Source: Clostridia bacterium (GTDB taxonomy: Bacteria > Bacillota > Clostridia > Christensenellales > Borkfalkiaceae). From it: a stretch of 11,635 nucleotides of DNA. The stretch is taken from NCBI GenBank assembly GCA_029063275.1, contig JAIDOO010000296.1:7287-18921 (forward strand). The letters are read 5' to 3'. Position 1 is the first letter of the stretch. Every line of letters starts with the position of its first letter. Shown here one piece after another: positions 1,621 through 6,467 of this stretch. Under the pieces are notes generated by a model, which saw only the letters and a program-made list of their open reading frames with translations, was not told the DNA's origin and searched no databases. The position numbers were made by a program, and so were the translations under genes.

Positions 1621-3048
1621 ATGGTAACGTTGGAAAAAAATATTAAAGGTATAAAGGACGTCCTGACTTCGCAGGATATACTCGTTTTCGAGTTTCAGTC
1701 GTCCGAAGGGAAGAGGTTTGCCGCAATTTATGCGGACGGCATAGCCGACAAACAGCTTTTGGGCGAACTGGTAGTTAAGCCTTTAAGGGAAGTTAAAAAA
1801 GACGCTAAGCTTGACGAGGTAAAGATGTTGCTTGCCTCGCCCGAAGTTAAGGATTGCAAAAAAATAAAGGACGGCATTGCGGAGGTTTCGGACGGAAATG
1901 CGGTGTTATTCGTCGACGGAGAAAAGGACTTTTTTATAATAGGTCTTAAAAATCCCCCGGGGCGCTCGGTTGCGGAACCGCCCACGCAGATTACCTTGAA
2001 AGGTCCGCGCGAGGGGTTTACCGAGGATATTAAGGTCAATTTGGGGCTTGTCAGAAAAAGACTTAAAAGCGATAAACTGCATATAAAAATGCTCAAATCG
2101 GGACAGCGGTCGGATACGGCGGTCGCAATGATTTACCTTGACGACGTGGTTCAGAAGGACTTGCCCGAAGACGTTGAAAAGCGCATTTTGAATAACGAAA
2201 TCGATTTAATTCCCGATTCGAGCTATATAGCCCAGTTCATTTCAAAAAAACCGAAGTCGCTTTTTAAACGCAACGGCACCAGCGAAAAACCCGATATTTT
2301 CTGTGCGAAAATATGCGAGGGAAGGGTGGGGCTTATCGTTGACGGCTCGCCCATTGCGCTGACCGTACCATATATTCTTACCGAAGATTTGCAGGCGGCG
2401 GAGGATTATTACGCGGTTTCGTACCGTTCTACGATAATACGAATTCTGCGCGTGCTGTCATTGGTAGTGGGAATGTTTTTGCCCGCTATGTATATTTCGG
2501 CACAGCTTTTTAAAATTCAGCTAATACCCTTTCAGTTGCTGTTGAAAATTTCAAGCTCCATTTCGAGTTTGCCGCTCTCGCCCAGCGTAGAAATGTTTTT
2601 GACACTGTTCGTTCTGGAAGTTTTAAACGAGGCGTCGATACGAATGCCCAAGTACGTCGGTCTTGCGCTGTCGGTAGTGGGCGCGCTGGTTTTGGGCGAT
2701 ACGGCGGTCAAGGCGGGCATAATTTCAACGCCTGCGATAATAATTATCGCATTTTCGGCAATCTGTCTGTACACCACGCCCGATTTGGTTGAAACTACTG
2801 CGACTTTGCGCTGGATACTTTTAATCGTTTCGGGCAGTATCGGTCCGTTCGGCATAGTTCTGTTTACGGCGTTTATTATATGCTATCTCGTAACCGAGCA
2901 GTCTTACGGCGCGCCCCTTCTTGCGCCCTTTGCGCCCGTTGTAAAAAGCGATTTGTACGACAGTATGGTCAAAGCCAATATGAACAAGCTGAACGACCGT
3001 CCGCGGTCGTACGTAACCCGTGATAAAGTGAGGTTTAAGGCAAAATGA
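1621..3048 (+). CDS. gerAA: Spore germinant receptor A subunit (GerA/GerKA family)
   Basis: This 475-residue protein is the A subunit of a GerA-type germinant receptor, which sits in the inner membrane of the spore and helps detect germinants. Residues 1-265 are the soluble region, with the family hallmarks RSVAEP (115-120) and GPREGFTED (128-136) followed by a basic stretch. AEDYY (260-264) precedes the membrane region, with helices from about 274 onward. The conserved RMPKYVGLALSVVGALVLGD segment starts at 341, and YGAPLLAPFAP is at 429-439. I chose ATG 1621 over an in-frame TTG at 1597: neither has a Shine-Dalgarno, and the family usually begins close to the LEKNIKGIKD helix. It overlaps gerAB by four bases. 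The symbol is a family name; the germinant is unknown. Confidence 0.93.
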   Translation: MVTLEKNIKGIKDVLTSQDILVFEFQSSEGKRFAAIYADGIADKQLLGELVVKPLREVKKDAKLDEVKMLLASPEVKDCKKIKDGIAEVSDGNAVLFVDGEKDFFIIGLKNPPGRSVAEPPTQITLKGPREGFTEDIKVNLGLVRKRLKSDKLHIKMLKSGQRSDTAVAMIYLDDVVQKDLPEDVEKRILNNEIDLIPDSSYIAQFISKKPKSLFKRNGTSEKPDIFCAKICEGRVGLIVDGSPIALTVPYILTEDLQAAEDYYAVSYRSTIIRILRVLSLVVGMFLPAMYISAQLFKIQLIPFQLLLKISSSISSLPLSPSVEMFLTLFVLEVLNEASIRMPKYVGLALSVVGALVLGDTAVKAGIISTPAIIIIAFSAICLYTTPDLVETTATLRWILLIVSGSIGPFGIVLFTAFIICYLVTEQSYGAPLLAPFAPVVKSDLYDSMVKANMNKLNDRPRSYVTRDKVRFKAK

Positions 3049-4106: not shown

Positions 4107-5389
4107 TTAAAAAGCTTTCAGTAATAATTTACTGGGCGATTTTGATTGCCCTTCTGGCGCTGTTTTTTACCAACGATTTCGGACTGACGGATATACGCAA
4201 AACCTCGATAATAGTCGCTGTCGGCGTGGACACGCAGGACGGCGAGGTGCAGGTTACCGCACAGCTTGCGGTACCTCAGCCGTCGGAAAGCGGAAACAAT
4301 ATCCAGTACACGCAGGTTCAGGGTAGCGGACTTACGGTTGCGGACGCGCTGAACGAAATCAACTCTAAAACGGGATTTTATCCAAAGCTTCTTTTCTGCA
4401 AGCTGATTTTAATCGGCGAAGAGTGCCAAAAGGACGAGCTTTTCAAAGTGCTGAGCTGTTTTTACAGACGTAACTATTCCGAGCTGACCGCACTCGTCGC
4501 TATGTGTCAGGGCAGGGCTTCGGATATGCTGGCAATGCCCGCAACCGTCAATCCCGAAACTTCGTCGGCTATTTTGCAGGTGCTTTCGGACGAGCTGGAA
4601 AAGTCGGCTAACGTATCTTATGCAAACCTCAAGGATATAGCAGAGACAAACTATTCAAAGAGCGCGGCTTGCTATATGCCCTATATCGAGGCGAATAAAC
4701 CGGGAACTTCGGAAAGCGGCGGCGGCGACAGTATCGGTGGCGACCCTGCCGGAGGCTCAGGTTCGGGCGGAAGCTCGGGAAGCTCGGGAGGCGGTTCGGG
4801 TGAAAGCTCGGGAGGCGGTTCGGGAGGTTCGCAAAGCGAAGGTTCGGGTTCGGGCAGCAGCGATACGGGCGGCGGACAAGAACAGGTAGAGTTTACCGCA
4901 AGAAGAACGGCGTTTTTTTCAAACGGCAAATTTGCGGGAATTCTTGACGAAACGCAAGCTTTTGCGCTGGATATCTTAAAGAACAGTATCCGCCTCGCGG
5001 TATTGCCCTTCGAGGTTGACGGTATCAACTATACCTTGGGAATGAAAAACGCAAACGGCGGAATTAAGCTCAAAGTAGACAAGGGCGTGCCCCGTCTTAC
5101 GCTTAGTTTTAAGGCAAAGGCGCAAATTCAGGGAAAGAGAATGACCCTCGACCCCCACGACGTGCCCTTTGACGATACCGTAAAGCAAAGCGTATTGGAG
5201 GGCGCGAAAAAAGAAATCGAAAAACGGTTTTCGGACCTTGTGAAAGTCTGCGCGGAAACCGACTGCGACCTTTTGGGCGCGCGCAACCAGTTGTATAAGT
5301 ACAATAACAAATATTTTGACGCATTCAATGAAGATTTGCTTACGAGAATGGAAGTAAAGTACGAAATCGATATCCAAAGCATAAATTAA
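4103..5389 (+). CDS. gerAC: Spore germinant receptor C subunit (Ger(x)C family), non-lipoprotein variant with Gly/Ser linker
   Basis: This 428-residue protein is the third subunit of the receptor. Residues 6-22 form a membrane helix. IRKTSIIVAVGVDTQDG (31-47) matches the segment that in typical GerC proteins directly follows the lipidated CWD motif. The N-terminal domain runs to about 203, a Gly/Ser linker spans about 205-258, and the C-terminal domain (about 262-428) ends with the usual FSDLVKVCAETDCDLLGARN and ALFHK-like regions. GerC proteins are normally lipoproteins, but here there is no cysteine before residue 99, so the protein is probably held by its uncleaved N-terminal helix. It ends the operon, just ahead of a terminator. 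The family call is secure; the anchoring mode is an inference. Confidence 0.9.
   Translation: MIKKLSVIIYWAILIALLALFFTNDFGLTDIRKTSIIVAVGVDTQDGEVQVTAQLAVPQPSESGNNIQYTQVQGSGLTVADALNEINSKTGFYPKLLFCKLILIGEECQKDELFKVLSCFYRRNYSELTALVAMCQGRASDMLAMPATVNPETSSAILQVLSDELEKSANVSYANLKDIAETNYSKSAACYMPYIEANKPGTSESGGGDSIGGDPAGGSGSGGSSGSSGGGSGESSGGGSGGSQSEGSGSGSSDTGGGQEQVEFTARRTAFFSNGKFAGILDETQAFALDILKNSIRLAVLPFEVDGINYTLGMKNANGGIKLKVDKGVPRLTLSFKAKAQIQGKRMTLDPHDVPFDDTVKQSVLEGAKKEIEKRFSDLVKVCAETDCDLLGARNQLYKYNNKYFDAFNEDLLTRMEVKYEIDIQSIN
4715..4876 (+). repeat. Low-complexity Gly/Ser-coding tract in gerAC
   Basis: About 54 codons here are nearly all Gly and Ser. The DNA includes a perfect 20-base direct repeat at 4781-4800 and 4805-4824, a period of 24 bases (eight codons), so length change by slippage or unequal recombination is possible without frameshift. 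The tract lies between the two folded domains of the protein, fitting a flexible linker. Confidence 0.9.
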
Positions 5390-5426: not shown

Positions 5427-5444
5427 TTATCTTTTAAAAAAAAG

Positions 5445-5474
5445 TTGAAAAATGGGGCGGTTTAATGTTATACT
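5445..5474 (+). promoter_or_regulatory. Promoter of the structured RNA and small ORF
   Basis: There is a -35 TTGAAA (5445-5450), an 18-base spacer, and a -10 TATACT (5469-5474) preceded by TG (extended -10). The predicted start, about 5479-5481, coincides with the first base of a long inverted repeat, which independently supports a transcript starting here. Confidence 0.75.
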
Positions 5475-5479
5475 GTTCG

Positions 5480-5641
5480 TACCACATAAATTGAATAAAA
5501 AGGGAAAAAACCGTGCAAAATGTGAATGGCATTTTGTACCTCTTTTGCGCGGTATTTTTTCACTGTATACGTTCAATTTGTGTGGTAACAAATCGGGGGT
5601 ACAGGTGCAGGTGTGTTCCCGGTTTGGGAACACACTTTTTT
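5480..5641 (+). ncRNA. Candidate structured RNA (leader or sRNA), unknown family
   Basis: The predicted transcript begins with a segment (5480-5496) that pairs with 5571-5587 over 17 positions, two of them G-U. Inside that, 5504-5510 pairs with 5555-5561, 5511-5516 with 5547-5552 (a two-base bulge between these helices), and 5517-5522 with 5530-5535 around a seven-base loop, giving a rod-like hairpin of about 106 nt. A single-stranded stretch (5588-5610) leads into an intrinsic terminator (5611-5641). Open reading frames crossing it have no ribosome-binding site and run through the stems. I do not recognise an Rfam-type signature. It could be a stand-alone sRNA, or a cis-acting leader controlling the ORF at 5658. 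The structure is worked out by eye, not by folding software. Confidence 0.6.
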
Positions 5642-5695
5642 ATTTCAGGAGAATAAATTGCGCAATAAAATTGTTACCACACTTTTAGAACGTAT
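5567..5695 (+). repeat. Interrupted inverted repeat joining the RNA to the ORF start
   Basis: The 12 bases at 5580-5591 are perfectly complementary to 5671-5682, and the eight at 5567-5574 are perfectly complementary to 5688-5695, separated by a five-by-five mismatch. The downstream arm covers codons 5 to 13 of the small ORF. The upstream arm overlaps the strand that also pairs with the RNA's 5' end, so the two pairings exclude each other. Confidence 0.8.
5611..5641 (+). terminator. Intrinsic terminator/attenuator between the structured RNA and the small ORF
   Basis: A perfect ten-pair stem (5611-5620 with 5626-5635), a GGTTT loop and six T residues (5636-5641). It sits only six bases ahead of the Shine-Dalgarno of the downstream ORF, so full-length mRNA needs read-through. 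That is the layout of a transcription attenuator, or of an sRNA with a leaky end. Confidence 0.88.
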
Positions 5696-5795
5696 CTTGG
5701 AGCTCACCGAAGAAAACAGCCTGACTTTAAAGCAGGAGGTTGACGAAAACGGAAAAGTTACCGTAACCATTACGGTAGCGATAAACGAAGACTGA
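5658..5795 (+). CDS. Small protein of unknown function (45 residues, TTG start)
   Basis: An AGGAG at 5647-5651 is six bases upstream of TTG 5658, and the frame runs to a TGA ending at 5795, followed by a strong terminator at 5825. The predicted protein is acidic: an amphipathic helical N-terminal half (residues about 2-22, RNKIVTTLLERILELTEENS) and a beta-prone C-terminal half with alternating VTVTITV. There is no signal peptide or membrane helix, so it should be cytoplasmic. I do not recognise the family. A longer reading frame to 5613 exists, but its upstream part lies inside the terminator hairpin, so it is not used. A perfect 8-base inverted repeat (5759-5766 with 5770-5777) lies in its 3' end. 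The well-placed Shine-Dalgarno and dedicated terminator argue that the gene is real. Confidence 0.6.
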   Translation: MRNKIVTTLLERILELTEENSLTLKQEVDENGKVTVTITVAINED

Positions 5796-5824: not shown

Positions 5825-5856
5825 GTCCTGCGGATTTTCCGCAGGACCGTTTTTTT
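5825..5856 (+). terminator. Intrinsic terminator of the small-ORF unit
   Basis: A perfect ten-pair stem (5825-5834 with 5838-5847), a three-base loop, and seven T residues after CG. It lies between convergent genes. On the minus strand the stem is followed by a weaker A/T-rich stretch, so it may also serve the gene ending at 5863. Confidence 0.9.
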
Positions 5857-5862
5857 ACGGCG

Positions 5863-6411
5863 TTATTGGGTTGCCAGGTGCGCAAGCGTTTCTATTATCA
5901 GCTTGGAAAGAAGCTGAACATCACGTTCGTTGACGCCGTCGGTTGCGCTGTTTGCGATAATTTCCTCGCAAAGTTTTGCGCCGTTGCCCGTTACGTCCTT
6001 TAAAATCGCGTCGGTTACTTTTTTTGCAACCTCTTCAACGCTGTCGTCGGGCACGAAGCCCTGTATGAGCGCGGATACAACCTGCTCGGTTTCGGTAAGT
6101 CCGCTCTTCTGCCTTATAAACTGCTCGTACAAAACGTACAAGAGGGTGGCAAGCGAGCCTATCGCAAGACCGTGCTCGATAATTTCGGCATACTGCTGTA
6201 TAACGTAAATCGCACTCATATTACGCACTCCCGCATATACTGCATACAGCAAGGTTCCCAAAGTGAAGGGGAGAAAGGTCAGAATTTTTTTCTGCACCTT
6301 TTTCAGAACAGTAATTTTAAGAACCTGCGTAAGTATTGCGGTGGCGGCGGCAAGAATTGCCAAGTCTACGCCGTAAAAGGTGAAAATATCTATAATCTGT
6401 ATAAATGTCAA
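5863..6411 (-). CDS. Membrane protein of unknown function with three predicted helices
   Basis: The 182-residue form starts at TTG 6411, chosen because AAGGAG (6417-6422 on the complement) lies five bases upstream. A GTG at 6435 would add eight residues, but that start would place this strong Shine-Dalgarno inside the gene. Predicted membrane helices are near 13-33, 43-61 and 80-96, with a lysine-rich loop (36-42) between the first two. The C-terminal half (about 100-182) is soluble, acidic and helical, beginning QKSGLTETEQVVSALIQGF. I do not recognise the family. The small size and hairpin-like first two helices resemble some holin-like or phage-related membrane proteins, but no lysis or phage genes are nearby, so I give no function. 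Confidence 0.75.
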   Translation of the reverse strand: MTFIQIIDIFTFYGVDLAILAAATAILTQVLKITVLKKVQKKILTFLPFTLGTLLYAVYAGVRNMSAIYVIQQYAEIIEHGLAIGSLATLLYVLYEQFIRQKSGLTETEQVVSALIQGFVPDDSVEEVAKKVTDAILKDVTGNGAKLCEEIIANSATDGVNERDVQLLSKLIIETLAHLATQ

Positions 6412-6428
6412 AATTACTCCTTGCCGTA

Positions 6429-6467
6429 ATTTCACCCGAACAATTACGAGATTATTATTTCACCCGA
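6429..6467. repeat. Direct repeat upstream of the membrane-protein gene
   Basis: An 11-base sequence, ATTTCACCCGA, occurs at 6429-6439 and again at 6457-6467, spaced by 28 bases, just ahead of the gene starting at 6411. Tandem sites at close to three helical turns could be a regulator's operator. It may also be chance in a short intergenic region. Confidence 0.5.

Follow-up and report, generated by a model that had tools for sequence, protein, structure and literature searches.

The structured RNA at positions 5478–5645 of the window, the 11,635-nucleotide stretch of Clostridia DNA analysed here, is best read as a cis-acting transcription attenuator of an uncatalogued class with a riboswitch-like design; the probability of this reading is put at roughly 0.8, with the switching itself inferred. 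A pseudoknot, an antiterminator and a terminator share strands and are mutually exclusive, which is the layout of a transcription attenuator. These helices, their overlap, and the order of promoter, RNA, terminator and gene are established by the sequence and its comparison with homologues.

All parts of the locus lie on the forward strand. The Shine-Dalgarno, lipobox, promoter, P1/X/terminator and complementarity rules applied in the analysis are simple, self-written scripts. A promoter-like site (TTGAAA-18-TATACT, with TG before the −10) matches the consensus at 5445–5474, from which transcription would begin near 5481, at the base of the P1 stem. P1, supported by folding and covariation, joins 5480–5496 to 5571–5587 through 17 of 17 pairs, two of them G-U, a run reached by none of 2000 shuffles. 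A first-pass annotation had proposed both this 17-pair stem and a promoter at its base, and had suggested folding the leader, which gave −61.6 kcal/mol for 5478–5645 (z −5.6 against dinucleotide shuffles). Within P1 lies the P3 hairpin (5516–5536), defined by covariation, with core pairs 5517–5521 × 5531–5535 and GGC in its loop, and beside it the pseudoknot 5′ strand GUACCUC (5536–5542). Directly 3′ of P1, segment X (5588–5608), delimited by pairing comparison, has two exclusive partners: the strand inside the hairpin, or the terminator 5′ strand and loop. It carries the pseudoknot 3′ strand (5596–5602) overlapping the antiterminator 5′ strand (5589–5603), whose partner (5612–5626) is inside the terminator 5′ stem and loop. 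The intrinsic-terminator-like hairpin, followed by a U-run, is placed by sequence and covariation at 5609–5637, in agreement with the terminator annotated earlier at 5611–5641. Downstream are a Shine-Dalgarno-like AGGAG (5647–5651), recognised by sequence and used by the ORF scan, a 45-codon ORF with a TTG start (5658–5795), and a second terminator-like hairpin (5825–5847, from sequence) 3′ of the ORF. Elsewhere in the window, 4700–4890 belongs to a GerC-like spore germination protein whose two Pfam domains are separated by a long Gly/Ser-rich insert. A 190-residue ORF after the RNA gene (5863–6435, reverse strand) had no match above the cut-off in Pfam or NCBIfam; it may be a phage-holin-type membrane protein.

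DNA of the leader (5476–5645) matched 42 of 398 genomes of the family, and an alignment of 43 copies was used to build a covariance model, R1, a step that the first-pass annotation had recommended. R1 found matches in 227 of 398 family genomes (E ≤ 1e-3), in 72 of 396 genomes across the order and 48 of 311 across the class (both E ≤ 1e-4; the family itself contributes 24 and 3 of these, respectively), and in one of 299 in a sample of the phylum (E ≤ 1e-4), which was the window's own genome. As few candidates per genome were scored in these searches, copy numbers from them are lower bounds. Finer scoring of seven genomes (E ≤ 0.01) gave 7, 7, 11, 11, 4, 4 and 6 matches, the two values of 11 coming from near-complete genomes, in one of which (G168) one match is a weak reverse-strand echo. 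Since such echoes of the palindrome score 24–34 bits, matches of at least 35 bits were kept, giving a broad set of 199 distinct sites. The window's own genome has seven matches, four of them under 35 bits, and the pseudoknot and antiterminator can be drawn by eye in all. Of eight loci from other orders, seven were read by eye and have the same layout, with a signal-peptide-like ORF in five. Among named genomes, 52 stretches contain an 18-base loop motif, and 47 of these come from Clostridia MAGs. When R1 was applied to 10 of 53 loop-motif loci, all four from Clostridia matched and none of the six others did; the exact motif matches in five non-Clostridia contigs and one viral contig are taken as chance because the model match is absent there. 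That the RNA is a companion of the 45-residue ORF alone was rejected, as the ORF protein occurs in 3 of 93 genus genomes and the RNA in the 227 family genomes given above.

Five helices (36 pairs) are conserved. On the 42 distinct rows of the alignment they are 96.8% paired, against 28.8–57.5% for slid controls, and their double changes exceed those of all 500 shuffles; further pair types showed no excess (39 against 37.3 in shuffles, with 130 of 500 as high). The covariation that the first-pass annotation had wished to see in P1 is present, the base of this stem being 99.4% paired with double changes in four of eight pairs. P3 (88.5%; four of five pairs) and the terminator hairpin (98.6% of cells; six of ten) behave likewise, X with the terminator loop is 92.4% paired with double changes in one of six pairs, and the pseudoknot (5536–5542 × 5596–5602) is paired in every row, with double changes in three of seven. 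In the broad set, complementarity of the pseudoknot strands was 17.5 against 13.3 for shuffles, and at 105 of 199 sites at most 1 in 20 shuffles was as high; the gain over swapped partners was modest (17.5 against 15.8; 21 of 187 sites at the 5% level, about 9 expected). Pairing of the pseudoknot strand with the Shine-Dalgarno site was rejected as a general feature (own 13.1, swapped 13.0; 12 of 168 at 5%, 8.4 expected). In other copies a further helix, P4, brackets the terminator and U-run, with variants such as UGCAGGGC/GCCCUGCA, GUGCGG/CCGCAC and GCGGGC/GCCCGC. At 13.4 for own and 10.9 for swapped partners (37 of 172 sites at 5%, 8.6 expected), P4 is, from these comparisons, a real helix in many copies; none was seen by eye in the window.

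In the window the two antiterminator strands form 15 of 15 pairs, such a run arising in 1 of 5000 shuffles, and the leader folds at −61.3 kcal/mol with the antiterminator and −61.6 with the terminator, a gap of 0.3. For the wider comparison, nine of the 199 sites were set aside for the length of X and 22 as duplicates, leaving 168 distinct pairs. Here complementarity between X and the terminator was 19.5 for own partners, 14.1 for swapped and 11.3 for shuffled, realised through 118 different duplexes; of the 168 cases, 161 overlap the terminator 5′ stem and 156 the pseudoknot strand. Runs of at least eight pairs were found in 127 of 168, against none of 32 other terminators from the same loci. 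On the 43-row alignment the antiterminator is 92.6% paired (slid controls 30.5–64.5%), and has 10 doubly changed cells, which no shuffle equalled; the doubly changed pairs number only three, with 168 of 500 shuffles as high, and further pair types showed no excess (346 of 500 as high). Mean hairpin energies over the 168 are −11.6 kcal/mol for the antiterminator and −16.5 for the terminator, 114 lying within 6 kcal/mol of each other. The alternative pairings proposed by the first-pass annotation were different, namely P1 against the start of the ORF; the set conserved in general is the pseudoknot, antiterminator and terminator.

These overlaps allow a mechanism to be modelled. Polymerase would start at the base of P1 and transcribe a sensor domain (P1, a variable P2, and P3 with its GGC loop), followed by X. 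With X held in the pseudoknot by the sensor's GUACCUC, the antiterminator would be blocked, the terminator would fold and the transcript would end about 160 nt in. With the pseudoknot unmade or broken, X would pair with the terminator 5′ strand and loop, the terminator would be lost, and polymerase could read through into the gene. The pseudoknot would thus represent the OFF state.

The surroundings of the copies fit a cis-acting leader. A −10-like box lies 5′ of P1 in 197 of the 198 copies tested, 147 of which also have a −35-like box; both boxes together were met at 29 of 800 random positions. In 172 of 199 copies, a start codon with a Shine-Dalgarno-like site is found on the same strand no more than 150 nt further on, against 21 of 188 in a mirrored control. 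The earlier proposal of an attenuator-type leader is supported in its layout by this gene placement, together with the helices and their strand overlap. The median distance from terminator stem to start codon is 35 nt, and in 128 of the 172 it is at most 45 nt, which would leave little room for another promoter. Of the 27 copies without an ORF by this rule, 10 are upstream members of tandem arrays, in nine loci, and one runs into a contig end. Such arrays, with two or three leaders in a row before one gene, are seen in L117, L176, L177, L180, L186, L189, L204, L244 and L245. In two genomes of another order (L308 and L309), the leaders are nearly identical and the downstream sequences differ by eye, one leader preceding a secreted-type ORF and the other a different sequence in which no ORF is clear, as though leader cassettes were mobile between genes.

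The genes served encode diverse surface-type proteins, not one pathway. Among ORFs of 100 residues or more, a lipobox-like signal opens 99 of 161 that are RNA-led, compared with 10 of 106 others in 40 loci. Pfam was applied to 89 of the 166 downstream proteins with 60 or more residues, hand-picked against near-duplicates and many of them cut at locus ends. This revealed 62 families in all; among the 25 listed are BspA-type LRR_5 in 25 proteins and a double zinc ribbon in 14. As to the signal, it is nearly an even bet that a protein or a second RNA acts on the leader to tip the balance between pseudoknot and antiterminator, and the diversity of the regulon and the many copies per genome would suit such a global regulator. 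A narrower form of the attenuator reading is a true riboswitch, with the P1–P3–pseudoknot domain binding a small molecule or ion directly. Consistent with this are the joining of a sensor domain to a terminator/antiterminator platform, the near-invariant bases seen in the alignment in and beside the pseudoknot strands, and the tandem copies in nine loci, a feature known from riboswitches. Against it, the regulon is not that of a pathway, and by eye conserved unpaired bases are few apart from the GGC. Direct ligand binding is possible, with the odds leaning against it.

A second pairing was proposed between the leader and the 45-codon ORF, which shows third-position bias when compared with two orthologues (10 of 13 and 17 of 25 differences). 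The first-pass annotation had noted that the P1 3′ strand, extended to 5567–5591, is complementary to 5671–5695 (codons 5–13), and both blocks are indeed perfect: 12 bp between 5580–5591 and 5671–5682, and 8 bp between 5567–5574 and 5688–5695. As 32 of 2000 shuffles also reach a 12-bp run, the window is weak proof when taken alone and homologues are needed. These were provided by 14 genes starting M..(F/L/I)VTT, including that of the window and its two orthologues, in which codons ~4–9 could pair with the P1 3′ strand together with the beginning of X. The pairing runs are 9–15 long, the value of 9 being shortened by parsing, and matched variants occur (GUGGUGAC/GUCACCAC, GUGGUAAC/GUUACCAC, GCGUGG/CCACGC), so that the covariation sought for this pairing was found in the few loci that possess it. 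Complementarity in this group was 31.6 for own and 26.2 for partners swapped within the group. In L143 (MKKLLPH), a 13-bp match lies at nt 10–22 in another reading frame, which points to selection on the RNA.

Beyond this group the pairing shows no clear excess, with own and swapped values of 13.9/13.9 (MKK), 13.8/13.7 (other), 14.5/14.4 (Zn) and 16.9/16.0 (MKH); over all 172 sites they are 16.9 and 15.5, with 22 sites at 5% and 8.6 expected. It was therefore rejected as a general feature, being confined to 14 of 172 genes plus the one in another frame. The switch originally envisaged, in which the P1 3′ strand would either close P1 or bind the ORF start and so set translation, draws on the matched variants, the within-group excess and the L143 match, and is unlikely given its absence from the other groups. 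Moreover, with one sequence common to most of the group, no single site reaches significance against within-group swaps (fraction 0.08–0.54), and in the window's read-through RNA the P1 fold is better than the ORF-start pairing by 5 kcal/mol. On the sequence comparisons the ORF-start pairing is real but local, and in the group that includes the window it probably adds control after read-through, with codons ~4–9 as a second partner for the P1 3′ strand. The same complementarity in 14 genes could instead mark the terminated leader as a trans-acting sRNA, directed for example against ORF starts such as that of its own gene; a predicted promoter and terminator of its own and several copies per genome would fit. 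The first-pass annotation had considered an sRNA with built-in antisense to its downstream gene. Very little probability is given to this reading. An independent sRNA would not need to lie immediately upstream of a same-strand gene, as 172 of 199 copies do (control 21 of 188); this placement disfavours an sRNA whose gene neighbour is merely next door. The P1 strand that would do the pairing is, besides, enclosed in a stem of 17 bp.

Attenuation thus remains the preferred reading, and its relation to catalogued RNAs was examined with Rfam 15. At gathering score, cmscan gave nothing on the RNA in the window, 20 close loci (scanned at this score only), 20 divergent loci and eight loci from other orders, in keeping with the earlier statement that no named family matches. 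A sub-threshold overlap with BTnc005 (window 5434–5557, E 0.46, 20.4 of 174.8 bits) is taken as chance. 6S RNA (RF00013) resembles the leader as a long, mostly double-stranded hairpin of similar length, and lacks an attenuator platform; it was rejected, the genome's one match lying elsewhere (G000:C16, 55.4 bits) and the window scan giving none. T-box leaders (RF00230) make a comparable terminator/antiterminator choice, and no T-box match fell on the RNA in the 20 divergent loci scanned. Closest in general kind are OFF-type transcription-attenuating riboswitches and leaders, which share a promoter, a structured domain, a strand-sharing antiterminator and terminator, and a gene right after. The present RNA differs in having no Rfam match at gathering score and in its anti-antiterminator, a pseudoknot that reaches back into the sensor.

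Several other RNA elements lie near copies of the leader. L119 has a T-box-like match below gathering (1935–2156, forward strand, 78.6 of 93 bits), off the RNA (1501–1686, reverse). In L120, a leader of the present class has a Gut-1 RNA match on either side, on the same strand (RF01706, gathering 50; 973–1053 with 56.8 bits and 1946–2014 with 49.6 bits, reverse strand), and a DUF3268 RNA (RF02966, 89.2 bits) lies near a leader in L071 (4691–4806, reverse). Between terminator and ORF, L121, L129, L195 (the window's own genome) and L198 (genome G020) carry a further repeat, about 110 nt long (GACCACGTCATCTGATATCCGCG... to a GC-rich hairpin); with no Rfam match in L121 and L129, it is perhaps another unnamed leader element.

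In the literature, PMC11109978 describes a motif whose terminator-loop pseudoknot is proposed to block terminator formation; going by that description, the motif and its gene set are other than those reported here. No description of the present RNA was found in open-licence papers taken without their supplements, and tables such as those of PMC8040213 may include it without a name. The RNA class, the pseudoknot anti-antiterminator and the surface-type regulon were not found described in these searches; the kind of regulation itself is known.

The leader is an abundant structured RNA without a catalogue entry, present in more than half of the family genomes searched and in other orders of the class, and it allows one signal to be tested for many genes at once in a single in vitro assay. 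It also provides an apparent case of base pairing to the leader limiting how the gene's own coding sequence may vary. The RNA flags surface-type proteins as a common regulon in these bacteria, which are represented here by uncultured MAGs only. A bolder and tentative proposal, held at somewhat below even odds, is that a family of RNA sensors spread across the class, perhaps amounting to a new kind of riboswitch, with about 10 copies per genome at most, sets the surface of uncultured Clostridia through lipoproteins, BspA-type LRR and zinc-ribbon proteins, and that in one branch leader pairing dictates codons ~4–9 in signal peptides that differ from one another (FVTT, or LLPH in another frame).
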